Part shown: one piece after another, positions 19,691 through 40,019 of the stretch
Layout of the letters: each line of letters opens with the position of its first letter
How positions within the stretch are numbered: position 1 is the first letter of the stretch
Origin: Comamonas suwonensis
GTDB lineage: Bacteria > Pseudomonadota > Gammaproteobacteria > Burkholderiales > Burkholderiaceae_C
Length of the DNA: 64,000 bases
Direction: 5' to 3'
Assembly: GCF_012844455.2 (NCBI RefSeq)
Contig: NZ_JABBCQ020000001.1
Span: 248,001 to 312,000 of the forward strand
Program-made: the position numbers and the translations under genes
Notes under the pieces: generated by a model
What the model was told of the DNA's origin: nothing
The model's database searches: none
The model's input: only the letters and a program-made list of their open reading frames with translations

Positions 19691-20096
19691 TTATCCATTC
19701 GGTGGATAAATTGAAGACCCATGCCTCTGTTTTTCAGGAAATCAACACAAAAGGCAGATCTGGCATACAGATCATGTTTTGAGCAGCGACAGAAGGAAAA
19801 CTAACTGGGATAAAACGTATGAAATAACGCGCTTCATAGCTGTGGATAAATTACATGTTCTTCCGTCTTACAGAGCCACAATAAGCGTGAACAACCTTAA
19901 CCACAGCACTTGAAAACTGTTCATTTTTCACTCTTCAAGAGAATTTTCAAATTCTAGAAAAATCTATTTATTCATAAAAATTTAACAAACTTATCAACAG
20001 CAATAGCTACAAAGTTATATCCAGGATACAAACAGGTTCTATTAGCGTCGTTTCTGTGGATAAGTTTCTTGAAAACTACGCTTCAGACAATCCACA
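19691..20096. other. Left DnaA-box cluster
   Basis: Two exact copies of the DnaA box in the TGTGGATAA orientation lie at 19841-19849 and 20055-20063. Single-mismatch copies are GGTGGATAA (19701-19709), TTAACCACA (19897-19905) and TTATCAACA (19991-19999). Weaker ones are TTATCCATT (19691) and CAATCCACA (20088). The surrounding DNA is AT-rich. This may be an auxiliary DnaA-binding part of the candidate origin on the other side of dinG. Confidence 0.55.
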
Positions 20097-20295: not shown

Positions 20296-22470
20296 ATGCA
20301 CGAAAAAAAGTGGGCTGAAGAGGCCCTGAATTCCTTTGATGCCGTCGTTGGAGCCATGCCAGGATTTCGCAGCCGTGAAGGACAGCGAAAAATGGCGGCT
20401 CAAATCGCAAAAACGCTGAGCGAAGCCCAGCTCGGAAAAGTCGATGAAGACGATCCAGAACCCCGCAGGGCGATTGCCGTGGTTCAGGCTGGTACGGGCG
20501 TTGGAAAGTCGCTGGCCTACAGCATCCCAGCCATCCGCATGGCGTTGTCGCGTGGCACGCGTGTGCTGATATCCACGGCAACGGTGGCACTGCAGGAGCA
20601 GCTGGTAAACAAGGATTTGCCGGCGCTGGCCGCCAAGCTCGATCAGCCCTTCAAATTCGCGCTGGCCAAGGGGCGTGGCCGTTTTGTCTGCAAACTCAAG
20701 CTAGAGCGGCTTGCCAGCACGGGCGAAGCGCAGGATGAGGAAATGGACGATCTGTTTGGCGACGAAAAGGCCCAGACCAAGATCCATCGGCCTCAGCACG
20801 AGCTGCAAGCCCGCATGCAGTTCTACAAATCCATGGCGGATGCGCTGGCAACCGAGGCATGGAGCGGCGACCGCGACTCGCTAGAAACGCCGCCAGAGGC
20901 CGAGGCATGGAGTCCCGTGGCAGCCGAGTCATCGTCTTGCACGGGCAAGCACTGCCCTGCTTTCAGCAACTGCGTTTATTACGAGCGCCGCAAGGACCTG
21001 GTGGCCGCGCAAGTCATTGTGGCCAATCATGATTTGCTGCTTTCCTCACTCGGCTCCAAGCTGCTTCCGGATCTGGATAACTGTCTGCTGATCCTTGATG
21101 AGGCACACCACCTGCCCTCCACCGCTCTGGATCGATTTGCGGGCGAGATGGACCTGAGTCGCCTGACCTGGATCGACAAACTGGCCAGCCGCGCGCTGCG
21201 CGTGAACCAGGTCGCGGAAGTGGAAGAGTTGGCCGATGTGCCCAAGCATGCAGGTCAGCTGCGCCTGCAGATGCAGGAGCTGGCCAGACTCGTCATGGAG
21301 CAGTACGGAGAGGCCCTTAAATCGCAAAAAGACAGCTATGGGCCAGCCAGGGTAAGGGCGACCCGCGGAATGCTGCCTGAGGCCCTTTTAGAGCCTCTGG
21401 GCCTTATTGCTCACCATGCCGATGGCTTTCTGGATGCTTTGCGTGCGGTTTCCAAAGCGCTGCGTGCAGAAATCAAGGACAAGCCCGAGGAAGCACAGCG
21501 CCTGTCCACCATTTATGCGCAGGTCGGGGCACTGGCACCGCGACTGGAAGCCATCTCCAACACCACGCAATTGCTTTTGCAGCACAGCGGGCCGGACGGC
21601 GAAAGCACGGCGGTACCCAACGCCAAGTGGTTCACGTTGGAGATGGACGGGGAATTCATTGCCGTCAAGGCTCACGCCAGCCCCATTCAGCCGGGCTCCA
21701 CCCTGCGCCGGCATTTGTGGTCGCAGGTCAGAGGTGCGGTACTCACCTCTGCCACGCTGGCCAGTTGCGGCCATTTCGACTTCTTTTTGCGTGAGGCTGG
21801 CTTGGTCAATGACCCATCAGTCACTACGCTGGAAGTCCCCAGCCCCTTCGACTATGGCCGCCAGGGCACGCTAGTAGCCCGGGAAACGGCCGCAGACCCG
21901 CGTGAGGCGGCTCGCTTTACCGAGGAAATGGTCGAAGCCTTGCTGAACGATCTGAGCCGTATACAGGCCGGTGCGCTGGTCTTGTTCACATCCCGAGAGC
22001 AAATGCGGCAGGCGGTGGATGCGCTATCCACCAGCATGCGCAACCAGGTACTGGTGCAAACCGCCCTGCCCCGCCAGACATTGCTGGCCCGCCACCGCGA
22101 AGCCGTGGAAATGGGCGAGCCATCCATCATTTTCGGCATGCAATCTTTTGGTGAAGGGCTGGATCTGCCCGGTGCGCTGTGCGAGTCGCTATTCATCACC
22201 AAGCTGCCTTTTTCCCCACCCGACGACCCGGTGGGTGAAGCAAGAGCTGAATGGCTGCGCAGCAGCGGCCGTAATCCCTTCAACGAACTGGTAGTGCCTG
22301 CTACGGCCATTCGTTTGGCACAGTGGGTAGGACGCGCCATTCGAACAGAAGAAGACCAGGCCCATGTGTACTGCTATGACCGCCGCCTGACAAGCACCAG
22401 CTATGGCCAATTGCTCATCAAAAGCCTGCCACCATTCGCCCTGCAACGCAGACCCGTTCAGGCGGCCTGA
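20296..22470 (+). CDS. dinG: ATP-dependent DNA helicase DinG
   Basis: An XPD-like 5'-3' helicase of 724 residues that unwinds R-loops, D-loops and forks. Walker A AGTGVGKS (about 65-72), four Cys for the 4Fe-4S cluster (one in FVCKLK, three in CTGKHCPAFSNC), Walker B DEAHH near 267 and the C-terminal helicase motifs (IIFGMQSFGEGLDLPG and WVGRAIRTEEDQ) are all present. The start lacks a clear ribosome-binding site. Its place between two AT-rich DnaA-box regions is notable because it acts on replication barriers. Confidence 0.95.
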   Translation: MHEKKWAEEALNSFDAVVGAMPGFRSREGQRKMAAQIAKTLSEAQLGKVDEDDPEPRRAIAVVQAGTGVGKSLAYSIPAIRMALSRGTRVLISTATVALQEQLVNKDLPALAAKLDQPFKFALAKGRGRFVCKLKLERLASTGEAQDEEMDDLFGDEKAQTKIHRPQHELQARMQFYKSMADALATEAWSGDRDSLETPPEAEAWSPVAAESSSCTGKHCPAFSNCVYYERRKDLVAAQVIVANHDLLLSSLGSKLLPDLDNCLLILDEAHHLPSTALDRFAGEMDLSRLTWIDKLASRALRVNQVAEVEELADVPKHAGQLRLQMQELARLVMEQYGEALKSQKDSYGPARVRATRGMLPEALLEPLGLIAHHADGFLDALRAVSKALRAEIKDKPEEAQRLSTIYAQVGALAPRLEAISNTTQLLLQHSGPDGESTAVPNAKWFTLEMDGEFIAVKAHASPIQPGSTLRRHLWSQVRGAVLTSATLASCGHFDFFLREAGLVNDPSVTTLEVPSPFDYGRQGTLVARETAADPREAARFTEEMVEALLNDLSRIQAGALVLFTSREQMRQAVDALSTSMRNQVLVQTALPRQTLLARHREAVEMGEPSIIFGMQSFGEGLDLPGALCESLFITKLPFSPPDDPVGEARAEWLRSSGRNPFNELVVPATAIRLAQWVGRAIRTEEDQAHVYCYDRRLTSTSYGQLLIKSLPPFALQRRPVQAA

Positions 22471-22618: not shown

Positions 22619-23209
22619 CTAACACTTGAGGGACTGGAGTTGCTGGAGGATCAATGACTTCAGTCTCCCGGCTTTCCAGTACTCCGTTCGTTGTGCTCTT
22701 GCACCAGTCGCTCAGCGCTTGCGCTGTGATTAACCGCGGATGTTCATCAGTCACGATGAATCAGCATCACTTCGCAATGAGTACGGCTTCGCGCGACGCT
22801 GCCATCCGCCACTTCTTTGCTTTTGACCTGTAACGGTAAACAGGGCTGCTGACGAGCAACTAAAGGCATTTTCAGAAAAATCGTTTGAAAACAATGGTGT
22901 AAAGACCATTGAATTTTTTTGAATGCATTGCTATCGCCTGCCTGCAATGGGCAGTGTGGCTTCATGGAATGGTTACCCCCAGCTGTTCATAACATTCTGT
23001 GGATAACCATCTTTCCCAAAGCCTGGATATAGAACTTTATCCCCAACTCTTGACGTTGAGGCTGCGCATCTTACGCCAAATTTTTGAGCTCTGACGCGTC
23101 AATTTTTCTAAAGCCCTTTTTTCCGGCTATCTCCCTCTGTAGAGAGGCTTTGAGACACCTGATTGACGGAGGTTCAAACCTGCACACATTGCGGAATCTT
23201 GGGTTTAGC

Positions 23210-23426
23210 TTTAGTTGTTCTTTAGAGTTTTTATAAATATTTAGTGGTAGTAGTAAAGATGCCATATTCCTGTTGATAACTATCAAAAGTTGATAAAAAT
23301 CAACCATCTTTGGTACTGATAAACATGGAGACAGGTGATTGCTGCTGCTGTCCTCCATTCATGAATAACTTGCAAGTTTTCGAAATTTCTGTGGACAACC
23401 TCGAAGTTGATATGTCGTTATCCACA
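23210..23426. repeat. Origin-like module, copy 1
   Basis: Shares a nearly gapless, 429 bp offset match with 23638-23855. Shared landmarks: TTTAGTTGTT (offset 428), the triplet run, the 14 bp spacer and box, CTGCTGTCCT (23345), GAATAACTT (23363), TTTCTGTGGA (23386), and the terminal TTATC box. The triplets read TAG TGG TAG TAG TAA; the box beside them is TGTTGATAA. Confidence 0.7.
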
Positions 23427-23637
23427 GAAATTCATATTTCATGAATAAATAAGAAAACCTCTGCTGATCAAGCAAATACAGGCGTTATTAGCTATGTTTT
23501 TTATAGTGAATAACTAAAAAAGCGGATCTTGAACACATCAGGTTTGAAAGATGTGAAGTATCCCGAGGCCCTTCTCAACCATCTGAGCAACCCATTTTTT
23601 TATTCAATGCGTGCATGTATGCTGTGCAAACTTTGGC

Positions 23638-23867
23638 TTTAGTTGTTATTGCTAGTCTTATATTTTTACTTAGTAGTAATAGTAAGTACCTCACTTAATT
23701 GTGGATAAGTTAAAAATAACATTAAAAATCAATTACTTAAAGTTTGTTTAAGTTTGTGGCCGAAGGTCAACTCCTGCTGTCCTTGATTTGGGAATAACTT
23801 TTTCAAACTGGGAATTTCTGTGGAAAACATGAAAATTTCTTGGCTTTTATCACCATGTTTATACACA
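23638..23867. repeat. Origin-like module, copy 2
   Basis: Diverged duplicate of 23210-23426. Landmarks at the same offset: triplets TAG TAG TAA TAG TAA (23671-23685), exact box TGTGGATAA (23700), CTGCTGTCCT (23774), GAATAACTT (23792), TTTCTGTGGA (23815). The terminal box is degraded to TTATCACCA at 23847 but TTATACACA follows 12 bp later. Confidence 0.7.
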
Positions 23868-23941: not shown

Positions 23942-24505
23942 CTAGAAGTACCGCGCATATCGGAGCTGGAGAAAGTTAGTGCCTGGGTTGGGTTCCTTGA
24001 TGCCTGCATTGGAATGGTGCTCCAGCCGCAGGCTGATTTCATTTTTCCGCTGCTCTCCAAACAGGTAACCGACCCCCAAGTGGCTTGCAAAGTTGTAGCG
24101 CGTTGAGAACTCTTTGTGGTCTGTGATGTAGCGGTGGTTGGTGGCATAGCTCACACCTAGCCCTGCTTGCAGAAACCAGGGCGATTGGCCTTGTGCGGGG
24201 TGCCAGCGCAGTGTGGGTTGTGCTCCCAGAACCCAGGTCGAACGATTTCCGCCTTGGTAATCAGCCGACCAGCGGCTGACTGAGAGATCCCAGTAGCCTG
24301 TCAGCTTGCCCGAGCCCAGTGCGTAGCTCCAGTTCCAGGGGAGCATGACGCCGCCGGACCAGCTGTCTGTGCCATGTTCTGCGCTGCCGTATTGCAGGTA
24401 TACGCCTGTGGCAGGGTTCTGCACAGACTGTGCAAGGGCTGGAAGACTGGGCAACACTGGAGCCAGCAACATGACAAATGTTCTTGCTATCTGCAGCTTT
24501 TTCAT
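23942..24505 (-). CDS. PagL-type lipid A 3-O-deacylase (acyloxyacyl hydrolase)
   Basis: Outer-membrane beta-barrel enzyme that removes the 3-linked acyl chain of lipid A. The 187-residue product has a signal peptide ending near ALA-QS and ends in the aromatic RYARYF. The catalytic His-Ser pair of PagL is seen in LEHHSNAGI, followed by the NPGTNFLQL stretch. The start at 24505 has GGGAGG upstream; an in-frame extension to 24682 is not a plausible secreted protein. It is a single gene with its own terminator. Confidence 0.85.
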   Translation of the reverse strand: MKKLQIARTFVMLLAPVLPSLPALAQSVQNPATGVYLQYGSAEHGTDSWSGGVMLPWNWSYALGSGKLTGYWDLSVSRWSADYQGGNRSTWVLGAQPTLRWHPAQGQSPWFLQAGLGVSYATNHRYITDHKEFSTRYNFASHLGVGYLFGEQRKNEISLRLEHHSNAGIKEPNPGTNFLQLRYARYF

Positions 24506-24668
24506 GGCGAAGATCCTCCCTGTGGTCGGACTATGGGGCGTTACAGATCTGCTGAAGGGTCTGAATTTCTTACGCTCCGTGGAAATGAATCTAGATCTTT
24601 GTGAATAAAGGTTCTGTCGGCAAGCAATTGCGCTTGTAGTCAGCCAATGGATATCGTGCAAAAAGAAA

Positions 24669-24698
24669 AAGCCCCCGGTCATGACGACCGGGGGCTTG
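24669..24698 (-). terminator. Intrinsic terminator of the Spy-like gene
   Basis: AAGCCCCCGGTC and GACCGGGGGCTT form a perfect GC-rich stem. It lies just past the stop of the gene at 24719 and could also stop transcription from the other side. Confidence 0.75.
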
Positions 24699-28091: not shown

Positions 28092-28107
28092 GGTTTCACG
28101 TGAAACC
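28092..28107. promoter_or_regulatory. parS: parS site 1 (ParB-binding)
   Basis: GGTTTCACGTGAAACC, 14 of 16 to TGTTTCACGTGAAACA and part of a perfect 20 bp palindrome (28090-28109). It is in the gap between the thiolase gene and cueR. Confidence 0.8.
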
Positions 28108-28135
28108 CGGACCAGGCGTTTTCGGGGACTTTTTC

Positions 28136-28642
28136 TCAGGCCGCAGCCTTGTTGCGGCGCTTTGGCGTGGGGGCAATGGGCTCGTGATGAGTCGGTGACA
28201 GATCGGTGTCGGCGCTGGCCAAATCGTCGAGGATGGGGCAGTCGGGCCGGTCATCGCCATGGCAGCAATGCACCAGTGTCTGCAACGTGCGCTGCATGGA
28301 TTGCATGGCGGCGATGCGCTCGGCCAGCGCGGCAATGTGCTTTTGCGCAATGGTCTTGACCTGACTGCTGGCACGGTCCTGGTTTTGCCACAGGCCGAGC
28401 AGAGTGGCGATCTCATCCATGGAAAAGCCCAGATCACGCCCGCGGCGGATAAAGCGCAGCGCGTGCACATCGGCCTCGGTGTACTGGCGATAACCGCTGT
28501 CTGTGCGGTGAACGGGTGCCAGCAGGCCCAGTGACTCGTAGTGGCGCACCATGCGCGGCGACACCCCGGCGCGGCGCGCGGCTTCGCCGATGACAACAGG
28601 CCAGTTCTGAGCGATTTTTTGTGTTGATGGTTGGCTAGGCAT
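28136..28642 (-). CDS. cueR: CueR-like MerR-family copper-responsive regulator
   Basis: A 168-residue activator. The N-terminal winged helix reads VIGEAARRAGVSPRMVRHYESLGLL; a long dimer helix follows; the metal loop has two Cys in CCHGDDRPDCPIL, matching the Cys-x7-Cys of Cu(I) sensors. The C-terminus is Lys/Arg-rich. It lies 77 bp after the copZ-like gene on the same strand, probably one transcript from the dyad promoter at 28974. A copper ATPase is not next to it. Confidence 0.85.
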   Translation of the reverse strand: MPSQPSTQKIAQNWPVVIGEAARRAGVSPRMVRHYESLGLLAPVHRTDSGYRQYTEADVHALRFIRRGRDLGFSMDEIATLLGLWQNQDRASSQVKTIAQKHIAALAERIAAMQSMQRTLQTLVHCCHGDDRPDCPILDDLASADTDLSPTHHEPIAPTPKRRNKAAA

Positions 28643-28719
28643 GGTGTTCCCTGGAAAAACGCGCCAGCGGCCCTTTGATGACTTGTATGAGGCGCTGGCG
28701 CTGTGGTGCGAGAGCTGGC

Positions 28720-28914
28720 TCAGGCGACCTTGTAGCCTTCTTCGGCAATGGCGGCTTGCAGTGCATCGCGGCTGGCGCTGCTGTCCACCTCAACGCGGTT
28801 GGCGGAACGGTCGATCTTGATCTGGGCCTGGGCGTTAACGCCTTGAATGGCATGGGTGACAGCGCGTTCGCAGTGGCCACAGGTCATGCCTTGAACTTCA
28901 AAAACTTGTTGCAT
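28720..28914 (-). CDS. copZ: CopZ-like heavy-metal-associated (HMA) chaperone
   Basis: A 64-residue cytoplasmic ferredoxin-like domain with the metal motif GMTCGHC (Cys12 and Cys15), the normal size for a free-standing copper chaperone. It hands Cu(I) to CopA-type ATPases or to the CueR sensor. It is the first gene of a two-gene unit with the regulator and has a MerR-type promoter upstream. Mercury binding (MerP-like) is less likely because there is no signal peptide. Confidence 0.88.
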   Translation of the reverse strand: MQQVFEVQGMTCGHCERAVTHAIQGVNAQAQIKIDRSANRVEVDSSASRDALQAAIAEEGYKVA

Positions 28915-28966
28915 GGATCAGCTCCTTCATGGGTGAGCCACCGGGCTGGTGGACTCTATGGCTTGA

Positions 28967-28997
28967 ATGGTCAACCCTAACATCATGACAAGGTCAA
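28967..28997 (-). promoter_or_regulatory. MerR/CueR-type promoter-operator of copZ-cueR
   Basis: The dyad ACCCTAACATCATGACAAGGT is at 28974-28994. On the minus strand a TTGACC -35 (28997-28992) and a weak GACCAT -10 (28972-28967) are 19 bp apart, the long spacing that MerR-family activators correct. Confidence 0.65.
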
Positions 28998-29181
28998 GCG
29001 CTTTTCAAAATATGAACACAGGCAGGCTTGATAAGCCGCAAAGCGTGCCGATAAGAACTTGTCATATTGCAGATCGCCATGGTGCAGGCGCTTTGGTCAT
29101 GGCTTTTTGTTTGCTGACAATTTGAAACAATTGCTCATTCTGGTGTAAAAGATGCCGGTCGTTCAAAGTCGAGAGGGATTC

Positions 29182-30867
29182 ATGAGTCTGTTGGAAATGA
29201 TGCGGGGCTTCACCATCCGCACACGCATGCTGGGCGCCATTGGTGTGGTGATGGTCTTGCTGGGATTGCTGGGAGGCGCGGGCATGCTTGGCATGTCGCG
29301 CATTCAGGATATGAGCCAGGATTTTCGGAACAATGTCTTTGCAAAATCAGGCCATATGGCGCAATTGCGCATAGAGCTGGGCGGTATTCGCGTCAGTGAA
29401 AAAGACATGGTCATCCAGTATGAGAGGCCTGAGGAGGTGATCAAGGCCAATCAGCAGTGGAGCAAGTTCATCGACCAATCCAAGGCCACGCTGGGCAAGT
29501 TTATGACGGACCAGAGCGCAGAAGATGCGCTGCTGGCCAAGAGCATCACTGAGCGCATCGACAACTACCGCAAGCTGTTTGAACCGGTGGCACGCCAGCT
29601 GGAGGCCGGTGGCTATGACTCGGCCACAACGGCCAACCGTATGAGCGGCAAGGCGCTGGCCGAAATGGCCGAGGCCGACAAGCTGCTGGCTCAGCTCGAC
29701 AGCTTGCTGCGTCAGCAGTCAGATGCGCTGGCTGCGGCTGAGAGCAAGGTTTCTGAGCAGACACGCTGGCTGTTTATCGCTGCAGTGGTGCTGGCGCTGG
29801 TGGTGGTGATTCCGCTGACCTTGCTGAACATGCTGTCCATCTGCCAGCCGCTGGAAAGCGCCCGCCAGATGGCCTTGACGATTGCCGGCGGAGATCTCTC
29901 GCGCAAGGCGCATGTCAGCGGCAAGGATGAGCTGACGGATTTGCAGCAGGCGCTGGATGAAATGCAGCAATCGCTGAGCAGCACGGTAGCCCAGGTGCGC
30001 GACGCCAGCGGCAACATTGCCACGGCCAGTCAAGAGATTGCGACGGGCAACCAGGACCTGTCGGCCAGAACCGAGCAGACGGCCAGCAACCTGCAGGAAA
30101 CCGTGGCTTCTCTGGCCCAGTTGACGGCTACGGTGCAGCAGACGGCATCGTCGTCGCAACTGGCCAATCAGCTGGCTTCTTCGGCATCGTCCACCGCCGT
30201 GCAAGGCGGTCAGATCGTGAGTCAGGCCGTGAACAGCATGCAGGAGATTTCAGGCTCCAGCCGCAAGATTGGCGACATCATCGGGCTGATTGATTCCATC
30301 GCCTTCCAGACCAATATTCTGGCGCTGAATGCGGCGGTAGAAGCCGCTCGCGCAGGCGAGCAAGGCCGCGGTTTTGCCGTGGTGGCATCGGAGGTGCGTA
30401 GTCTGGCCAAGCGCTCGGCCGAAGCGGCCAATGAAATCAAGACGCTGATCAACACCAGCGTGCAAAGCGTGGATGTGGGCGCGCGCCAGGTGGAGAGCGC
30501 GGGCAAGGCCATGCAGGACACGGTGGACAGCGCCAAGCGCGTGGGCGACATCATTGGCGAGATCACTGCGGCGTCCAGCGAGCAGTCGCTGGGCATTAGC
30601 CAGGTGAATCAGGCCGTGGGCGATATTGATCGCATGACGCAGCAAAACGCTGCGTTGGTGGAAGAGTCTGCCGCCGCCGCCTGCTCGCTGCGCGAGCAGG
30701 CGGCAAGACTGGCGCAACTGGTCAGCCAGTTTCAACTGGCGGGTGGTTCTGTTCATGCTGCGATGCGTGCCGGTCCAGGGCCGCGCCGGAGTCCACCTCC
30801 GGCAGTTACGTCGGTCGGAAAGGCTGCCTTGCCTAAGCAAAAGTCACCGTTGCTGGAGCATGCATAG
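29182..30867 (+). CDS. Methyl-accepting chemotaxis protein
   Basis: Inner-membrane chemoreceptor of 561 residues. GAGAGGG precedes the ATG at 29182. It has a first membrane helix (about 14-36), a four-helix-bundle type periplasmic domain, a second helix near 190-212, HAMP, and the signalling hairpin with [41 protein letters not shown] (shown in part: [19 protein letters not shown]). The C-terminus ends PLLEHA, so it lacks a CheR/CheB pentapeptide. The ligand is unknown. No che genes are near. Confidence 0.94.
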
Positions 30868-30926
30868 GCGTTAAATCACGCCCATAAAAAGGCCCCCAGC
30901 TTGCCCTGGGGCCGCACGGCGGCAAT

Positions 30927-30963
30927 AAAAAAGCCCGGTTGCAGGAATGCACCGGGCTTTTTT
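30927..30963. terminator. Terminator between chemoreceptor and OYE genes
   Basis: AAAAAAGCCCGGT and ACCGGGCTTTTTT form a 13 bp stem with an 11-base loop; both strands have T runs, which suits the convergent genes. A second GC-rich stem (GGCCCCCAG/CTGGGGCC) lies just before it. Confidence 0.85.
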
Positions 30964-31019
30964 GCTTTCAATTCAGTAGCTGTTCGCGCAATCAGCGAAT
31001 GCGCTGGAAGCGGTTTTGA

Positions 31020-32138
31020 CTATGAATGGGCGACTGACGGGTAGTCGGTATAGCCGTCTTCGCCACCGCCATAAAAGCGTTTGCTGTCCCACGCGTTGAG
31101 CGGCAGATTGGCCTGCAGTCGGTGCACCAGATCAGGGTTGGAGATAAAGGCTTTGCCAAAGGCCACAACGTCGGCATAGCCGCTTTCAACGGCTTTCACT
31201 GCCATCTGGCGGTCATAGCCGTTGTTGACCATCCACGCGCCCTTGCCACCTGCGGTGCGGTAGGCCTGCTTGAGTGCGTGGTAGTCAAACGGCCTGTCCA
31301 CCAGCTCGCGCGGGCCACCGGTCGAGCCTTCAATTACGTGGATATAAGACAGGCCCAGTGGCGCCAGCACGCGCATCAGATACTCAAAAAGCGCTTGCGG
31401 GTTTTCGTCCGTAATGTCGTTGGCCGGGGTGACTGGCGAGATACGTATACCCACCTTGCCGCCGCCAATGGCATCGGCCACAGAGAGCATGCATTCGCTC
31501 ACCAGACGGCAGCGGTTTTCGATGCTGCCGCCGTAATCGTCGGTACGGTGATTGGTGCTGGTCTTGAGGAATTGATCGAGCAGATAGCCATTAGCGGCAT
31601 GCAGCTCCACACCATCAAAACCGGCTGATTGAACGGCCTCAACGGCAGCAACGGTGAAGCTGTGGACGATGCCTGGCAGCTCTTCAGACCGAAGTGCGCG
31701 CGGTGCAGAGGTGGGGAGGAAGTGACCCTCTCCAGTCTTTGGATCGATCACATAGGTCTTGGACTGGGCAGTCAAGGCCGATGGCGCAACAGGCGCGTGG
31801 TTGCCGGGCTGTAGTGTCGTGTGAGAAATACGGCCGACATGCCAGAGCTGAGTGACGATGCGACCGCCTTTTGCATGTACAGCCTGGGTCACTTTTTTCC
31901 AGGCCTGCAACTGCTCCTCACCATAGAGGCCGGGAACGTCAGAGTAGCCCTGAGCCTGTGCACTGATGGCCGTGCCTTCGCTGATCAGCAGACCTGCCGA
32001 GGCGCGCTGTGCGTAGTAGGTCTGCATTGCTTGTGTGGGCACCGCCTGGGGCGCCCGGTTACGCGTCAGTGGCGCCATGGCAATGCGGTTGGGCAGGCGC
32101 AGGCTACCGGCTTCAATCGGATCAAACAAAGAGGGCAT
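31020..32138 (-). CDS. Old-yellow-enzyme family alkene reductase (NemA-like)
   Basis: FMN-dependent, NAD(P)H-using reductase of activated alkenes, maleimides or nitro esters, 372 residues, cytoplasmic. Seen: the N-terminal RIAMAPLTRNRA, the substrate His-Asn motif in VELHAANGYLLDQFL, SIENRCRLV, and the C-terminal YADVVAFGKAFISNPDL phosphate site. It is downstream of the glutathione-transferase gene but separated by a terminator, so it is probably transcribed on its own. Neighbouring GST and FMN reductase suggest a general electrophile or redox-stress defence group. Confidence 0.92.
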   Translation of the reverse strand: MPSLFDPIEAGSLRLPNRIAMAPLTRNRAPQAVPTQAMQTYYAQRASAGLLISEGTAISAQAQGYSDVPGLYGEEQLQAWKKVTQAVHAKGGRIVTQLWHVGRISHTTLQPGNHAPVAPSALTAQSKTYVIDPKTGEGHFLPTSAPRALRSEELPGIVHSFTVAAVEAVQSAGFDGVELHAANGYLLDQFLKTSTNHRTDDYGGSIENRCRLVSECMLSVADAIGGGKVGIRISPVTPANDITDENPQALFEYLMRVLAPLGLSYIHVIEGSTGGPRELVDRPFDYHALKQAYRTAGGKGAWMVNNGYDRQMAVKAVESGYADVVAFGKAFISNPDLVHRLQANLPLNAWDSKRFYGGGEDGYTDYPSVAHS

Positions 32139-32153
32139 GCAAGGCTCCAGATG

Positions 32154-32184
32154 AAAAAAGCCCGAGAAATAATCGAGCTTTTTT
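32154..32184 (-). terminator. Terminator after the GST gene
   Basis: AAAAAAGCCCGA and TCGAGCTTTTTT form a stem with one mismatch and a 7-base loop; a T run follows on the minus strand, between the GST stop and the OYE start. Confidence 0.75.
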
Positions 32185-32203
32185 GTGAACAGATGCAGAA
32201 AAC

Positions 32204-32812
32204 TTACTTGATCAGGCCTTCGGCCTTCATGGCTGCCTGTACCGATGGGCGGGCCAGAATGCTCTCGCGGTAGGCGGCAAGATGCTTGAGGCTGGAGATG
32301 TCCAGACCCACAAATTGGGCCCAGCCTGTCACGGTAAACAGATAGGCATCGGCCACGGTGAACTGGTCACCCATCAGAAAGGATTTGTTGGCCAGTTGCT
32401 CATTGATCCAGTTCAGGCGCGTGAGCACATTGGCACGCACTGTGGGCTTGAAGTCTTCAGGAGTTGTCGGATTGAAGAGCGGGCTGAAAGCCTTGTGCAC
32501 CTCGGTGCTGATGAGGTTCAGCCACTCCTGCAAGTGGTAGCGCGCCATGGTGCCATTGGCGGGTGCTAGGTTCTTTTCGGGGACCAGATCCGCAAGGTAC
32601 TGCACGATAGCGGGACCTTCGTGCAAGGTGTCTCCGTTATCCAGCACCAGAAAGGGCACATAGCCCAGAGGATTGATGCTGTAGTAGTCAGTGCCATCCT
32701 GGAGCTTGTGGCTCTTGGTGCTGACCATCACGGTCTCATGCTGCAGGCCTGCTTCATGCAGCACGATGTGCGGAGACATTGAGCAGGCGCCGGGGCTGTA
32801 GTAAAGCTTCAT
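32204..32812 (-). CDS. Glutathione S-transferase
   Basis: Cytoplasmic 202-residue enzyme that joins glutathione to electrophiles. The thioredoxin-like domain begins MKLYYSPGACSMSPHI, the beta-class N-terminus with the Cys10 site; the glutathione contacts YVPFLVLDNGDTLHEG(P) lie near 52-68; an alpha-helical domain follows. The start at 32812 is the family start. The upstream in-frame extension to 32920 is not protein-like. Confidence 0.93.
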   Translation of the reverse strand: MKLYYSPGACSMSPHIVLHEAGLQHETVMVSTKSHKLQDGTDYYSINPLGYVPFLVLDNGDTLHEGPAIVQYLADLVPEKNLAPANGTMARYHLQEWLNLISTEVHKAFSPLFNPTTPEDFKPTVRANVLTRLNWINEQLANKSFLMGDQFTVADAYLFTVTGWAQFVGLDISSLKHLAAYRESILARPSVQAAMKAEGLIK

Positions 32813-32913
32813 GGTGAGTGGCTTTCGTTCAGTTGAAAAGACAAGCCGCCATGCTAAACCGGATACGCTTGAGCGACATGCAAGAGGCTGACAGTGATCC
32901 GTCTCCAGGTGGG

Positions 32914-33318
32914 TCAACAAAGATCCAGACTGGGCAAGAGATCGTTCAGGTAAAGCAAGGCGTCGTTGCCATTGGCTGTGGACATCTGCGCCAGAGATAT
33001 TTCCTCATCCACTTCGGCATATGCGATGGACCAGCCTTTGAATTTGCGCTCTCCATGCATGGGGCCGTGCAGCTGTAGCTTTACATCCTTGTGTCGCTGA
33101 TCTTTTTTGATGCTGGTCAGTACATCATTCAGTTCTTGTGCCGGGCCTTCCAGGTACTGGCAAAAACGGGAACCATCGAAAATCAGAATGCCGGTCAGTC
33201 CTAAATGCTGGTTCTTTTCCCGCGAAGTGCGAACGATGTCGCCCACGCACTCAGCAGACTGGGTCGGATCGAAAACACTGCAGTACAGAAATGCGTGAAG
33301 TGCGGAGGGTATAGACAC
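32914..33318 (-). CDS. BLUF-domain blue-light photoreceptor
   Basis: A 134-residue single-domain flavin photoreceptor. Key FAD and signalling residues are in place: Tyr12 in FLYCS, Asn36 in KNQHLGLTG, Gln54 in FCQYLEGP and Trp96 in FKGWSIAY. There is no ATG near the domain start; GTG at 33318 gives the usual domain length, while longer frames reach 33531 and collide with the FMN reductase gene. There is no effector domain (EAL, GGDEF or other), so it must work through a partner protein. The stop lies 101 bp before the GST gene, which may be co-transcribed. Confidence 0.85.
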   Translation of the reverse strand: MSIPSALHAFLYCSVFDPTQSAECVGDIVRTSREKNQHLGLTGILIFDGSRFCQYLEGPAQELNDVLTSIKKDQRHKDVKLQLHGPMHGERKFKGWSIAYAEVDEEISLAQMSTANGNDALLYLNDLLPSLDLC

Positions 33319-33409
33319 GGTCAATCTTGATAGAGGCTGATATGGCGTGATCGTAGAGGATGAAACCCATTGATTGGGTAAAAAGTGTTCCGCGATTATC
33401 AGTTTGCCC

Positions 33410-33985
33410 TTATTGAAACCGTCGTGCTGCCCATAGAACTTGCTCCACCAAGGCCTGCATGGCCTGTTGATCTTGGCTGCGCTGCAGTTGGTTTTGCATA
33501 TCAAATGCATCAGCAGCATGCGCCACGGCATGGCAGCGCGGTGTAACCCAGCACTGCAGATTCAATAGCAATGGGGCGAGGTGTGACTGGGCGCGCAGTC
33601 CACCCATGCCTCCAGGCGAAGCACTGGCCATGCCCACTACTTTGTTGCGAAAGGGCAGAGTGCCGTCAGACCACAGGGCATCGCCCTTCACGGGGCTGGA
33701 CGCCCAGTCGATGGCATTTTTAAGCAGAGCAGGATAGCTGCCGTTGTACTCAGGGCTGCAGATAATCCAGGCCGCATGGCTGTGCATGGCCTGCTTGAGC
33801 CGGATGACATCGGCAGGTGTGCCGCGCGCTTCAAGATCAGCGTTGTAGAGCGGAATATCGAAGTCCGCAAGTTCCAGCAAGGTAGCTTGTGCACCTTGCT
33901 GCTCTGCAATGGCCGCCGCCGCCTTGGCCAGCTTGCGGTTGTACGATTCCTGGCGGGTACTTCCCGCAAAAATGAGGATGTTCAT
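33410..33985 (-). CDS. NADPH-dependent FMN reductase
   Basis: A 191-residue flavodoxin-like reductase (ChrR/SsuE/ArsH superfamily). The FMN phosphate loop is AGSTRQESYNRKLA at 7-20; the flavin-binding SPEYNGSYPALLKNAIDW is typical of quinone/chromate reductases. It forms a cluster of redox genes with the downstream BLUF, GST and OYE genes on the same strand. A supply of reduced flavin or quinone detoxification is likely; the true substrate is not visible. Confidence 0.9.
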   Translation of the reverse strand: MNILIFAGSTRQESYNRKLAKAAAAIAEQQGAQATLLELADFDIPLYNADLEARGTPADVIRLKQAMHSHAAWIICSPEYNGSYPALLKNAIDWASSPVKGDALWSDGTLPFRNKVVGMASASPGGMGGLRAQSHLAPLLLNLQCWVTPRCHAVAHAADAFDMQNQLQRSQDQQAMQALVEQVLWAARRFQ

Positions 33986-34051
33986 GCTGTCATTGCAGCA
34001 CAGGGCAAGCGCATTTTTCCTTCAAAAATATGCCTCTCAGGGCAAACGCCA

Positions 34052-34067
34052 GGTTTCACGTGAAACA
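34052..34067. promoter_or_regulatory. parS: parS site 2
   Basis: GGTTTCACGTGAAACA, 15 of 16 to the parS consensus, in the leader upstream of mnmG. Confidence 0.88.
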
Positions 34068-34230
34068 CCTGCCTCAACCCTTGCCTAGGCATTGTTGCGT
34101 CAATGGTGGGAAAATTGCGGGTTCCCCGCAGGGCAGAACATGAGGTGAACACCTGTCTGCCTGCCATGAGAGCCGAGGCATGGTTGCTTCGTGCAGGGGC
34201 AAGGGCCGGGCGAGGCCCCGGAGCAAGAAC

Positions 34231-36195
34231 ATGTTGTACCCACAGGAATTTGATGTGATCGTGGTCGGTGGCGGCCATGCCGGCACCGAGGCTGCGCTGG
34301 CCGCTGCGCGTATGGGCAGCAAAACATTGCTGCTGACCCACAATATCGAAACCCTGGGGCAGATGAGCTGCAACCCCAGCATCGGCGGTATTGGCAAGGG
34401 TCATCTGGTCAAAGAGGTTGATGCGCTGGGCGGTGCCATGGCACTGGCCACTGACAAGGGCGGTATTCAGTTCCGTATCCTGAACAGCTCCAAAGGTCCC
34501 GCTGTACGTGCCACACGTGCTCAGGCTGACCGTATTTTGTATAAGGCAGCCATTCGCGAGATTCTGGAGAACCAGCCTAATCTCTGGCTGTTTCAGCAGG
34601 CCGTTGATGACCTGATGGTTGAGGGTGACCGTGTAGTCGGTGCCGTGACTCAGGTAGGCCTCAAGTTCCGCAGCCGCACCGTGGTGCTGACGGCTGGGAC
34701 TTTCCTTGACGGCAAGATTCACGTGGGTCTGAACAATTACGCGGCTGGTCGTGCTGGTGATCCTCCCGCAGTGTCACTGTCTGCTCGCTTGAAGGAGCTG
34801 AAGCTGCCCCAGGGCCGCCTCAAGACCGGCACGCCTCCTCGCATTGATGGTCGCTCCATCGACTTCAGCCAGTGTGACGAGCAACCAGGTGACGGCATGC
34901 CCGGAGGTGTGAACGAGGGTGAAGTGCCCGTGTTCAGCTTCATGGGCAACCGCGCCATGCATCCCAAACAGATGTCCTGCTGGATCACGCATACCAATGC
35001 ACGCACCCACGAGATCATTCGCAGCGGCTTTGATCGCAGCCCCATGTTCACCGGCAAGATCGAGGGCGTGGGCCCACGCTACTGCCCTAGCGTGGAAGAC
35101 AAAATCAACCGCTTTGCCGACAAGGAAAGCCACCAGATTTTTCTGGAACCCGAAGGACTGACTACCAACGAGTTCTATCCCAACGGCATCTCCACCAGCC
35201 TGCCATTCGACATTCAGTACGAACTGGTGCGCAGCATGAAGGGCATGGAGAACGCGCACATCTTGCGACCTGGTTACGCCATCGAGTACGACTACTTTGA
35301 CCCTCGCTCGCTCAAGAGCAGCTTTGAGACCAAGCAGATTCAGGGCCTGTTTTTTGCGGGCCAGATCAATGGCACGACTGGCTATGAAGAGGCAGCAGCA
35401 CAAGGTTTGTTTGCCGGGCTGAACGCCGCGCTGCAATGTCGTGGTGAAGGTCCATGGATGCCCGGGCGTGATGAAGCCTATCTGGGTGTTCTGGTCGATG
35501 ACCTGATTACCAAGGGGGTGAACGAGCCCTACCGCATGTTCACCAGCCGCGCAGAGTTCCGTCTGCAACTGCGCGAAGACAATGCCGATATGCGTTTGAC
35601 CGAAGTTGGCCGTCAGATGGGTCTGGTCGACGACGCGCGCTGGGACTCCTTCAGCCGCAAGCGCGATGCTGTTTCACGTGAAACAGAGCGCCTCAAGTCC
35701 ACCTGGGTGAACCCCCGCGTGGTCTCGGCCGAAGAGGCTGAGCGCGTGCTGGGTAAGGCCATGGAGCGCGAATACAACCTGTTTGATCTGCTGCGTCGCC
35801 CCGGTGTCGATTACGAAAAGCTCGCCAGCATGAACGAAGGCAAGTTCGCAACTGCCTCTGTACAGCCTGAAGCGCTGGGTGAGTTGAGTGCTTCGGTCAT
35901 TGAGCAGGTGGAGATTGCGGCCAAGTACTCCGGCTATATCGATCGCCAAAAAGATGAGGTGGAGCGTGCTGCGCATTTTGAGCGTCTGCGCCTGCCTGCG
36001 GACTTTGACTACATGTCGGTCTCAGCCCTGTCTTTTGAAGTCCGTCAGACACTGCAAAAACATCGCCCTGAAACACTGGGACAGGCATCCCGCATGTCCG
36101 GAGTGACACCTGCGGCCATCTCGCTGCTCCTGGTCCACCTCAAAAAAGGCGGCTTCAAGGGCTTTGCGGCACAGAATGAAGAGGCATCGGCATGA
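34231..36195 (+). CDS. mnmG: tRNA uridine-5-carboxymethylaminomethyl modification enzyme MnmG (GidA)
   Basis: FAD enzyme that, with MnmE, makes the cmnm5 side chain at U34 of tRNAs. The 654-residue product starts [21 protein letters not shown] with the dinucleotide-binding GGGHAGTE and has the [15 protein letters not shown] motif and the C-terminal helical domain for MnmE. The start at 34231 fits the family; the ATG at 34180 is upstream of it in a GC-rich leader. A perfect parS site lies inside the gene, coding for Ala-Val-Ser-Arg-Glu-Thr. The stop overlaps the rsmG start by 4 bases. mnmG is often origin-proximal. Confidence 0.97.
35670..35685. promoter_or_regulatory. parS: parS site 3, inside mnmG
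   Basis: TGTTTCACGTGAAACA, a perfect 16 of 16 match and full palindrome, in the coding sequence of mnmG. Confidence 0.95.
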
Positions 36196-36851
36196 GCCAA
36201 GCATTGCGTACCCAACTCGAACAAGGCATTCAGGCGCTGAAGCTGGAGCTGGCTCCGGCACAGGTTGATCTGCTCATGTCCTTCATGGATCTGCTGCAGA
36301 AGTGGAACAAGGTCTACAACCTGACCTCGGTGCGTGACCCGCAGGAAATGCTGACGCATCATTTGCTCGACAGTCTGGCTGCTGTCCCCGCTCTGCTGCG
36401 CCATGTGAATACGCTGCCGGTAGAAGAGGGCAAACGACTGCCTTTGCTGGACGTTGGTTCGGGCGGTGGCTTACCCGGCGTGGTATTTGCCATCTGCTGC
36501 CCGCAGATCAATGTGAACTGTGTGGACACAGTGGGCAAGAAAGCGGCCTTCATTCAGCAAGTGGCGGCATCGCTGCGCTTGCCCAATCTGCACGGCATTC
36601 ATGACCGAGTGGAAAACCTCAAGACCCAGTACCCTGTCATTAGCTGCCGCGCGTTTGCATCTCTGGTGGACTTCACCACCTGGTCGCGCAAGGCACTGGC
36701 CGACGGCGGCATCTGGTTTGCCATGAAGGCCAAACACCCCGATGAAGAGATTGCAGCCCTGCCTGCCGACGTGCAGGTGTTTCACGTGGAACCTTTGCAA
36801 GTTCCTGGCTTGGATGTCGAGCGCTGCGTGATCTGGATGAAAATCAAGTAA
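36192..36851 (+). CDS. rsmG: 16S rRNA (guanine527-N7)-methyltransferase RsmG (GidB)
   Basis: SAM-dependent enzyme of 219 residues that methylates G527 of 16S rRNA. The SAM-binding loop [17 protein letters not shown] and the family motifs [19 protein letters not shown] and SCRAFASL are seen. The ATG overlaps the mnmG stop. A parS-like sequence with two mismatches (TGTTTCACGTGGAACC, 36778-36793) is found near its 3' end. Confidence 0.97.
36778..36793. promoter_or_regulatory. Weak parS-like site inside rsmG
   Basis: TGTTTCACGTGGAACC, 14 of 16 to parS but with the palindrome broken on the right arm. It may bind ParB weakly or may be a decayed site. Confidence 0.4.
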
Positions 36852-37075
36852 CCGCCCCGAGCGGCTGTGCCGCTTGTCCCTGAGAGGGAGGTGATTTCTT
36901 CGCCGCCGAGCGGCCTTTGCTCGGCGTCCCTGATCTGGGGCGATAGCGTGTCAGTCGCAGACAGGCGGCCGCAAAATGGTTTTTTACACACTGAAGCAAG
37001 CAACCTATGTGCAATGCAGATGCGTTAGTGATGGCCCTCGCATAAACTTGCTGTTTTCCATCGCGCAGGGTTTGA

Positions 37076-37687
37076 ATGTTTGGCATCTCTGATTACGGCG
37101 CTTTTGCTGCGGCCGTCACCGTTTTCTTGCTGATACCAGGACCCGGTAATCTGGCGTTGATTACCTCCACAGGCAAGGGCGGATGGCGGGGCGGTATCGC
37201 ATGCTGTCTGGGTGTGATGGCGGCCGATCAGGTGTTGATGTGGCTGGCCGTTGCCGGTGTGGCGGCAGTGCTGGCGGCCTATCCTGCGGCGTTCAATGCG
37301 GTGCAATGGGTAGGGGCAGCTTATTTGGCCTGGCTAGGCTACAAGCTGCTGACGGCCAAGCCCGGTGATACGCCGGCTATTGATATTCAGCCGCGCCAGT
37401 ATTTTCGCCAGGGTGCGCTGATCACCTTGATGAACCCCAAGGCCATCGTGTTCTACATGGCATTTTTTCCCATGTTTGTGGACCCCACAAAGCATCAGGG
37501 TGTCGTCACCTTTGGCGTGATGGCTGCCACGGTTGCAGTGATTACGTTGATTTACAGCATCATCGTGGTGACGCTGACGAAGGTGCTGGCAGAGCGTTTG
37601 CGAGCCAACCCTGCGGTGGTGAAGTGGCTGGAAAAAACAGCCGGAGTGTTTCTGATCGGTTTTGGCCTCAAGCTGGCCGCCAACTAA
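37076..37687 (+). CDS. LysE/RhtB-family amino-acid exporter
   Basis: Inner-membrane exporter of 203 residues with about six helices. The N-terminal LIPGPGNLALITSTGKGGWRGG motif is the family hallmark; TLMNPKAIVFYMAFFPMFVDP is the second one. The substrate (homoserine, threonine or other amino acid) is not visible. It lies 224 bp after rsmG and 13 bp before parA, an insert in the par cluster that I believe is common in this bacterial family. Confidence 0.93.
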   Translation: MFGISDYGAFAAAVTVFLLIPGPGNLALITSTGKGGWRGGIACCLGVMAADQVLMWLAVAGVAAVLAAYPAAFNAVQWVGAAYLAWLGYKLLTAKPGDTPAIDIQPRQYFRQGALITLMNPKAIVFYMAFFPMFVDPTKHQGVVTFGVMAATVAVITLIYSIIVVTLTKVLAERLRANPAVVKWLEKTAGVFLIGFGLKLAAN

Positions 37688-37700
37688 AAAGAGAAGTTCA

Positions 37701-38471
37701 ATGGCCAAAATTTTCTGCGTTGCCAATCAAAAGGGTGGAGTGGGCAAGACCACCACCACGGTCAATCTTGCCGCTGGCTTGGCCAAAGTCGGCCAGCGTG
37801 TGCTGTTGATTGACCTGGACCCGCAGGGCAATGCCACTATGGGGTCAGGCGTGGACAAGCGCGCACTGGAGCTGACGGTTTATGACGTGCTGCTGGAAAA
37901 CGCCAGCATCAAGGAAGTGGCGATCCGATCCGAGCAGGTGGGCTATGACGTGCTGGGCGCCAACCGCGAGCTATCGGGTGCCGAGATTGAACTGGTGTCG
38001 CTGGAGCGCCGCAACGACCGCCTCAGGACCGCGCTGCAAAGCGTGAACGCCGATTACGACTTTGTTTTGATCGACTGCCCGCCTTCGCTGTCCATGCTGA
38101 CCTTGAACGGGCTGTGCTCTGCCCATGGCGTAATCGTGCCCATGCAGTGTGAATACTTTGCGCTGGAAGGCCTGACTGATCTGGTCAACACCATCAAGCA
38201 GGTGCATGCCAATATGAATCCTGATCTGGAGATCATCGGCCTGCTGCGCGTGATGTTCGACCCGCGCACCACGCTGCAGCAGCAGGTCAGTGACCAGCTC
38301 AAGGAACACTTTGGCGACAAGGTGTTCGACACCGTGATTCCGCGCAATGTGCGCCTGGCCGAAGCACCCAGCTACGGCCTGCCCGGCGTGGTGTTCGATG
38401 CATCGGCCAAGGGCAGCAAGGCCTTTGTCGAGTTTGCGGAAGAAATGGTGCATCGCATCAAGAAGAAGTGA
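37701..38471 (+). CDS. parA: Chromosome-partitioning ATPase ParA (Soj)
   Basis: Nucleoid-bound Walker ATPase of 256 residues that moves ParB-parS complexes apart. The deviant Walker A KGGVGKTTTTVNLAA is at about 11-25, with the signature Lys, then LLIDLDPQGNATMGSG and the FVLIDCPPSLS Walker B. There is no N-terminal DNA-binding extension, so it is a chromosomal type Ia-short/Soj form. The start at 37701 gives MAKIFCVANQ, with AGAGAAG upstream. A parS site follows directly after the stop. Confidence 0.97.
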   Translation: MAKIFCVANQKGGVGKTTTTVNLAAGLAKVGQRVLLIDLDPQGNATMGSGVDKRALELTVYDVLLENASIKEVAIRSEQVGYDVLGANRELSGAEIELVSLERRNDRLRTALQSVNADYDFVLIDCPPSLSMLTLNGLCSAHGVIVPMQCEYFALEGLTDLVNTIKQVHANMNPDLEIIGLLRVMFDPRTTLQQQVSDQLKEHFGDKVFDTVIPRNVRLAEAPSYGLPGVVFDASAKGSKAFVEFAEEMVHRIKKK

Positions 38472-38487
38472 TGTTTCACGTGAAACA
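38472..38487. promoter_or_regulatory. parS: parS site 4, directly after parA
   Basis: TGTTTCACGTGAAACA, a perfect 16 bp palindrome beginning at the base after the parA stop codon. Confidence 0.95.
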
Positions 38488-39086: not shown

Positions 39087-40019
39087 ATGGTGACTAAGAA
39101 ACCCAAGGGCCTGGGACGTGGTCTGGAAGCCCTGCTGGGCCCCAAGGTCAGCGAAAAAGAAGCAACGACGACTTCCAGTACTGCTGCAGCTAATTTGCCC
39201 AGCACGCTGGCGCTCAATGTGATGGTAGCCGGCCAGTACCAGCCGCGCACGCGCATGGACGAGGGTGCGCTGTATGAACTGGCCGAAAGCATCAAGGTAC
39301 AGGGCATCATGCAGCCCATTCTGGTGCGCCAGCTCGACAAGGGCGAACATTCGGGCAAGTACGAAATCATTGCCGGTGAGCGCCGTTTCCGTGCCGCACA
39401 TATCGCGGGTCTGAGCGAGGTGCCGGTGCTGGTGCGCGAGGTGCCCGATGAAGCCGCCGCTGCCATGGCGTTGATCGAGAACATTCAGCGCGAAGACCTG
39501 AACCCGCTGGAAGAGGCGCAAGGCCTGGCTCGCCTAGTCAAGGAGTTTGGCCTGACCCATGAGCAAACTGCACAGGCTGTGGGCCGCTCGCGCAGTGCTG
39601 CCACCAACCTGCTGCGCTTGCTGAATCTGGCAGAACCCGTGCAGACCATGTTGATGGCGGGTGATATCGACATGGGCCACGCCCGTGCGCTGCTGGCGCT
39701 GGACCGCGCCACGCAGATCACGGCGGGCAACCAGATTGCCGCCAAGAAAATGTCGGTGCGCGAGGCGGAATCGCTGGTAAAAAAGATCTCTGCCGAGTTC
39801 AATCTCACGCGCCAGAAGGTCAAGAAAGACGGCAAATCACGCGACGTAAAACGCATCGAAGAAGAGCTGTCTGACCTGCTGACTGCCGATGTGGAAGTGC
39901 GCATCAAGAAGACCGTGCGCCGCCAGGGCAAGCTGCATGAAATGGGCGAAATTGCCATTCAATTTGGCTCGCTGGAAGAGCTGAACGGCATTATCGAAAA
40001 GCTGCGCGGCGAAGTCTGA
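39087..40019 (+). CDS. parB: Chromosome-partitioning protein ParB (Spo0J)
   Basis: CTP-dependent DNA clamp of 310 residues that loads at parS. The N-terminus GLGRGLEALLG may stimulate ParA. The CTP-binding motifs are seen as GIMQPILVR and GERRFRAA; the helix-turn-helix is LTHEQTAQAVGRSRSAATNLLRL; a C-terminal dimer domain ends the protein. It follows the hydrolase gene by 15 bp and has a strong terminator behind it. Its target sites lie at 28092, 34052, 35670 and 38472. Confidence 0.97.
   Translation: MVTKKPKGLGRGLEALLGPKVSEKEATTTSSTAAANLPSTLALNVMVAGQYQPRTRMDEGALYELAESIKVQGIMQPILVRQLDKGEHSGKYEIIAGERRFRAAHIAGLSEVPVLVREVPDEAAAAMALIENIQREDLNPLEEAQGLARLVKEFGLTHEQTAQAVGRSRSAATNLLRLLNLAEPVQTMLMAGDIDMGHARALLALDRATQITAGNQIAAKKMSVREAESLVKKISAEFNLTRQKVKKDGKSRDVKRIEEELSDLLTADVEVRIKKTVRRQGKLHEMGEIAIQFGSLEELNGIIEKLRGEV

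Follow-up and report, generated by a model that had tools for sequence, protein, structure and literature searches.

The window analysed here, a stretch of 64,000 nucleotides, corresponds to positions 248001-312000 of contig 11 of Comamonas suwonensis, the genome of which (4.72 Mb) is distributed over 67 contigs. It contains dinG, the product of which is 93% identical to that of C. testosteroni strains, the closest named relatives, and 97-98% identical to that of two further members of the genus. Between the end of dinG and the pagL-like gene no open reading frame of at least 120 amino acids was found, and this gap harbours the AT-rich region that is the subject of this study (Table 1). Neither structured RNA (at the gathering score) nor tRNA was detected in the window. 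At a distance of 4-16 kb on the right side of the region stand mnmG, rsmG, parA and parB together with parS-like sites, five of which were observed against 0.14 expected from shuffling; such mnmG/rsmG/par/parS surroundings are typical of proteobacterial origins. The sole dnaA of the genome (contig positions 239473-240954), with dnaN and then gyrB downstream of it on the same contig, is located 7 kb past the left window edge and 30 kb to the left of the region, hence the initial annotation was right that dnaA is missing from at least 23 kb on the left and 40 kb on the right, and the adjacency to dnaA that is usual, but not defining, for an oriC is absent.

Table 1. Features of the predicted oriC and its surroundings, in window coordinates
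Feature	Position	Strand	Remarks
Second DnaA-box cluster	19701..20063	.	upstream of dinG; 2 exact boxes, AT-rich, no trio run
dinG, ATP-dependent helicase	20296..22470	+	lies between the two DnaA-box clusters
Predicted oriC	22998..23867	.	non-coding, AT-rich, 8 DnaA boxes (3 exact), two predicted unwinding modules
Two extra DnaA boxes left of the modules	22998..23045	.	22998 exact; 23037 one mismatch
Exact TTATCCACA boxes	22998, 23418, 23700	-, +, -	
TTATACACA box	23859	+	
Other single-mismatch DnaA boxes	23037, 23271, 23390, 23819		
Cumulative GC-skew minimum	23137	.	in 320 kb of own contig; inside the region
Left module	23214..23426	+	GTTGTT 23214, trios, R1-like box, IHF-like word, box 23390-23398, R4-like 23418-23426
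Left trio-like triplets, five	23242..23256	+	TAG TGG TAG TAG TAA
Left R1-like DnaA box TTATCAACA	23271..23279	-	14 bp from left trios
Left IHF-like word	23298-23310		2 mismatches to consensus
Right module	23642..23867	+	GTTGTT 23642, trios, R1-like box, IHF-like word, box 23819-23827, R4-like 23859-23867
Right trio-like triplets, five	23671..23685	+	TAG TAG TAA TAG TAA
Right R1-like DnaA box TTATCCACA	23700..23708	-	14 bp from right trios
Right IHF-like word AATCAATTACTTA	23727..23739	+	no mismatch; 18 nt past right R1-like box
pagL-like lipid A deacylase gene	23942..24682	-	right flank of predicted oriC
mnmG	34180-36195	+	
rsmG	36192-36851	+	
parA-like gene	37662-38471	+	
parB	39087-40019	+	
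Five parS-like sites	28092, 34052, 35670, 36778, 38472 (span 28092..38487)	+	0-2 mismatches

Architecture of the DnaA-box region

All of the DnaA boxes which the initial annotation had listed (three exact, one TTATACACA and at least four single-mismatch boxes in about 870 bp of AT-rich non-coding DNA) were found to be present. The three exact boxes, and the eight with at most one mismatch, stand within 870 bp of 36% GC; 1000 dinucleotide shuffles gave means of 0.011 and 0.30, respectively, and none of the 1000 reached either observed count, consequently the region contains a non-coding DnaA-box cluster beyond chance, as is looked for in an oriC. It is also the densest 900-bp cluster of DnaA boxes in the 320 kb of its own contig that were examined (contig positions 110001-430000).

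The two runs of five trio-like triplets, each described earlier as standing 14 bp from a DnaA box on the same side, were confirmed to the nucleotide, and the duplicated DnaA-trio module proposed from them is real and conserved. The modules have the same orientation and are 429 bp apart. In both of them GTTGTT stands 57-58 nt ahead of the R1-like box and is followed by the five triplets, the 14 bp, a TGTKGATAA box, 18 nt and the IHF-like word; distally, GAATAACTT comes about 92 nt on, and then a TGTGGAMAA-type box and the R4-like box, which stands at +147 in the left module and at +159 in the right one. A scan of both strands of the 320 kb for five trio-like triplets with a box returned four matches, namely the two modules and two register variants of the right one. 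Words matching the IHF consensus without mismatch, such as the one in the right module, occur nine times on both strands of the whole 320 kb. When 80-bp windows of the 320 kb were ranked by calculated duplex stability, both trio sites were among the five weakest (ranks 1 and 5), and the weakest of all starts at 23659, at the right trio site; an easily melted AT-rich element beside the boxes, as expected of an oriC, is thus found here.

The runs also agree with the rule derived for the basal unwinding system (BUS), where at least three NAN triplets stand within 16 bp of a DnaA box and the spacers peak at 10-13 bp with 16 as the limit (PMC8287927). The middle base is A in four of the five triplets of the left run, the last three being contiguous, and in all five of the right run, and the spacer of 14 bp is within the limit in both.

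Position of the GC-skew minimum relative to dnaA

Cumulative GC skew was computed locally, each stretch measuring 40-320 kb. On contig positions 110001-430000 it falls as far as the minimum given in Table 1 and rises afterwards, and dnaA is situated on the falling flank without any turn of the curve; the skew check suggested in the initial annotation, run on these 320 kb around the region, consequently placed the minimum inside it, where an oriC is expected on such local stretches. In nine of nine relatives (G001, G002, G004, G019, G022, G023, G028, G030 and G033; stretches of 60-120 kb) the minimum was located 0.6-1.4 kb downstream of dinG, at the module element, and dnaA was 17-83 kb from the element and, in G022, on the opposite strand. 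Four further members of the genus (G008, G014, G018 and G032), with 70-71% DinG identity, have their module 129-269 kb from dnaA; the skew minimum is at most 0.4 kb from the module in G008, G014 and G032, and G018 has its lowest point 9.6 kb away, the curve dipping almost as low at the module itself. Altogether, the local minimum coincided with the element in 12 of 13 relatives in the genus, with dnaA 17-269 kb away. An origin at dnaA was rejected, since neither a skew turn nor a trio-box site is present there.

The distance from dnaA was regarded in the initial annotation as the unusual feature of the locus. The distance itself is real, but it is less surprising than was thought, because displacement of the origin from dnaA recurs in all four genomes of other genera in which the origin could be placed (G080, G172, G196 and G093, where 0.2-2.3 kb separate the skew minimum from a module and 39-191 kb separate it from dnaA) and has been reported for CHR1 of Cupriavidus metallidurans, where the skew turns about 90 kb from dnaA and three perfect DnaA boxes stand in 213 nt (PMC2864759). 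The latter shares the dnaA-distant skew turn and the boxes with our region; the part of that report on which we draw contains no description of trios, IHF sites or twin modules (PMC2864759).

In G149, G156 and G219, family genomes without a match to the module pattern, the lowest skew was found 41-53 kb away from dnaA, but this point stood close to or at the end of the stretch used, as did the minimum of G079 in its 40-kb stretch. Five genomes of the order outside the family (G040, G043, G051, G056 and G058) had no module by the pattern used, and their skew was mixed; among these the minimum was 2 kb from dnaA in G051 and at the stretch edge in G040.

Conservation and distribution of the modules

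In an alignment of 14 Comamonas/Delftia sequences both trio runs, the 14-bp spacers and the R1-like boxes are kept amid poorly conserved DNA: the left trios and their spacer are retained in all 14, likewise the right ones, and the distance between the two R1-like boxes is 428-430 bp in every sequence, variant right boxes being seen in L041 and G001. The right IHF-like word, 18 nt after R1, has no mismatch in 13 of the 14 and one in the remaining sequence, and its left counterpart has 0-2 mismatches to the consensus (two in 9/14). The flanking elements vary more than the trio-R1 core, since the simple R4-like pattern was unseen in Delftia and in some other modules, and GTTGTT is absent from some modules.

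When the two modules were compared without gaps over 165 bp anchored on R1, they were 53% identical in the window and 46-54% identical across the 14 sequences, against means of 25-27% (sd about 0.035) for random anchors; among roughly 3,800 random pairs per sequence, no more than one matched the left/right identity. Free alignment of the units gave the same base in 69 of the 77 columns conserved in both, a flattering number given that the alignment was optimised. The two units therefore look like diverged copies of each other.

The sample of 53 genus genomes seems to take in Delftia as well, judging from members at 84% DinG identity, which is the value of the Delftia loci. The strict pattern TAGTARTARTAD-N12-16-TGTKGATAA was found once each in 24 of the 53, and its reversed control had no match among them. 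The looser TAGTARTAR-N9-18-TGTKGATAA matched in 50: as pairs on one strand, 417-437 bp apart, in 29, and at one place only in 21, the other three having none. Among the single-match genomes and loci that were scored, a relaxed score revealed a partner in G001, G004, G022 and G033 at a distance of about 426-439 bp, and in three C. denitrificans-type loci at 365-368 bp; in the four genomes G008, G014, G018 and G032 it revealed no second module. Twin modules need not be indispensable in the genus, as judged from these four genomes and from the three without a match. In each of the same four genomes the DnaA boxes form two dense clusters of 8-10, separated by about 1.4 kb, with one recognisable trio run.

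At least one module was present in 22 of 55 named dinG loci, and a pair in 15, within the flank stretch examined; the paired loci include C. kerstersii, C. aquatica, Delftia and two unclassified Burkholderiaceae (R1-R1 distances of 451 and 435 bp), and in the C. kerstersii/aquatica-type loci the modules stand 3.5-7 kb beyond dinG. The gene dinG was rejected as a component of the origin, since the other 33 loci show no module in the flank examined (26 of them are titled Acidovorax, Giesbergeria or Simplicispira, and one is Comamonas granuli); it looks like a neighbour rather than a part of the origin.

Across the family sample, the loose pattern occurred in 20 of 150 genomes (18 of 148 outside the genus). 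Same-strand modules with wider spacing were seen in G093 and G199 (about 3 kb) and in G172 (0.27 and 3.3 kb). Among 18 scored modules outside Comamonas/Delftia-type loci, 11 have an IHF-like word with at most two mismatches at 18 nt (five with at most one), and nine have an R4-like box at 146-148 or 158-159, which suggests, on the basis of the sequence patterns, that the left and right module types are old. A stricter pattern, trio-14-R1-21-CAA, had six matches in 399 genomes of the order, all in this family and none in the 382 outside it, a count that maps that exact spelling and not the absence of twin origins.

Three further genomes had their own arrangements. In G196 (C1:4504508 and 4515756) and G090 (C1:2495910 and 2507367), which belong to one genus, the pattern search placed same-strand modules about 11 kb apart, and the skew minimum of G196 is at the module nearer dnaA. 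G080, from another genus of the family, has three trio-box modules in the same orientation (C1:40083, 49283 and 69351) at intervals of 9 and 20 kb; they stand near its skew minimum, and all three carry the box variant TGTGGACAA.

Comparison with known origins and possible modes of unwinding

The region is very probably the chromosomal oriC with a doubled module anatomy, because independent lines of evidence (the skew, the boxes, the weak helix, the par/mnmG neighbourhood and the conservation of trios and boxes) point to it; the skew minimum in 12 of 13 relatives supports the oriC reading given in the initial annotation. On sequence grounds this is where the origin is located and how it is built, and from these we infer DnaA binding, IHF binding, melting and a division of labour between the modules. 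A plasmid-type origin was rejected, since a comparison with 72,556 plasmid records gave no similar DNA at the sensitivity used.

Each module resembles the oriC of E. coli. The latter lies between mnmG and mioC, hence on the mnmG side as the region does here, and has an AT-rich element, R1 (TGTGGATAA), an IHF-type word (ATCAACAAC) 18 nt after R1, which is the same offset as in our modules, and boxes as far as the R4-like TTATCCACAG; the IHF site of E. coli has two mismatches to the strict consensus used here and was missed by it. In E. coli too, dnaA is not adjacent to oriC. However, E. coli has one module with R4 at +180, whereas here two tandem modules have nearer R4-like boxes and clear trio runs. 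The BUS of B. subtilis is similar in its repeated 3'-GAT-5'-type triplets that run outward from a DnaA box (PMC8287927). It differs from the two BUS-like units of the same orientation described here in number: the published survey, in the part consulted, kept a single candidate in more than 99% of the genomes, therefore a second unit would go unlisted (PMC8287927).

A course of initiation can be proposed. DnaA would bind the R1-like box of each module, and its filament would extend from there onto the adjoining trios and open the duplex. The IHF-like word, 18 nt behind R1 and clear only in the right module, might bend the DNA and so bring the R4-like boxes at the distal end round, as happens in the orisome of E. 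coli. Both modules would most likely melt, the right one first, as it has the weakest helix, the best IHF-like word and exclusively TAG/TAA trios; the longer open platform could then allow the loading of two replicative helicases and thus bidirectional replication. The conservation of both trio-R1 units speaks for activity of both modules, and we lean slightly towards melting at both.

It is also quite possible, although we consider it somewhat less probable, that the region is oriC and unwinds at a single module, probably the right one, its partner being an old copy that has been retained as an array for DnaA binding or for regulation; this concerns the mechanism and not the location. The left module has the weaker IHF-like words; its R1 in the window carries one mismatch, and one of its triplets there is TGG. 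One module may suffice, since the left IHF-like word is weaker and four genomes have one recognisable module, and in B. subtilis and H. pylori the unwinding element is in one of two subregions (PMC8235120). Nevertheless, the left trios and their spacer are kept as faithfully as the right ones, the left trio site is among the five weakest helices of the 320 kb, and trios would be needless for mere titration of DnaA.

Melting at both modules would be compatible with a bipartite origin as well, in which the cluster upstream of dinG and the region are looped over this gene, in the manner of oriC1-dnaA-oriC2 in H. pylori and B. subtilis. H. pylori likewise has a second DnaA-box cluster across a gene and trios in one subregion, but there the intervening gene is dnaA instead of dinG, and here the trio-bearing subregion is itself doubled (PMC8235120). 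The two exact boxes upstream of dinG recur in 11 of 11 named loci of the C. testosteroni/terrae/kerstersii/aquatica type, one 80-bp window in the cluster ranks third in weakness over the 320 kb, and 8 of 13 aligned sequences retain the AT-rich block beside a box; the cluster may be an accessory subregion. However, the block is missing or different in the other five, the three Delftia loci examined, and likewise the three of the C. denitrificans type, have no exact box there, and a fixed loop is not conserved, since the distance between dinG and the modules grows to several kb in the C. kerstersii/aquatica-type loci, which makes the bipartite arrangement rather unlikely.

The least probable reading, a datA/DARS-like site regulating DnaA with the true origin at dnaA, would account for the dense boxes, the IHF-like word, the distance from dnaA and the four boxes of at most one mismatch in the dnaA region, but it is very improbable, because boxes and an IHF site away from the origin are not what is seen: the region coincides with a clear local skew minimum, the curve has no turn at dnaA, the minimum tracks the element and not dnaA across relatives with differing dnaA distances, the dnaA region has no trio-plus-box match, and parS-like sites cluster to the right of the region.

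Returning to the twin-module oriC, we tentatively extend it, with a little less than even confidence, to Comamonas and Delftia and probably to the ancestor of much of the family, as an origin of two E. coli-like modules of the same direction, both unwinding. The pair would be about 429 bp apart in most Comamonas/Delftia and would have drifted to 0.3-20 kb apart in some genera elsewhere in the family, perhaps as separate mini-origins on a single chromosome, with dnaA tens to hundreds of kb off.

A literature search of titles and abstracts, with most subscription papers and supplements outside its reach, found no description of a Comamonas/Delftia oriC or of a twin-module origin. The exact origin of Burkholderia cenocepacia is called unclear in the part of the report consulted (PMC4948915), and a paper on Acidovorax citrulli, as far as its consulted part goes, used OriFinder and marked the origin in a figure. 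What looks new is the anatomy of two modules in the same orientation, the distance from dnaA having precedent. It is an open question how a bacterial origin loads two helicases from seemingly one-sided melting, and a naturally doubled, evenly spaced origin offers a direct genetic test of it. Furthermore, where a genome of the genus is numbered from dnaA, the numbering does not start at the origin, and origin finders keyed on dnaA can miss such an origin.

The interval between gyrB and oriC (contig 11, 245-271 kb) contains efflux and siderophore-receptor genes in the organism of the window, and may be an insertion hot spot. The interval between dnaA and dinG ranges from about 15 to 145 kb among the genus genomes that have both on one contig, and the two genes share a contig, less than 100 kb apart, in at least 11 genomes of the family sample outside the genus.
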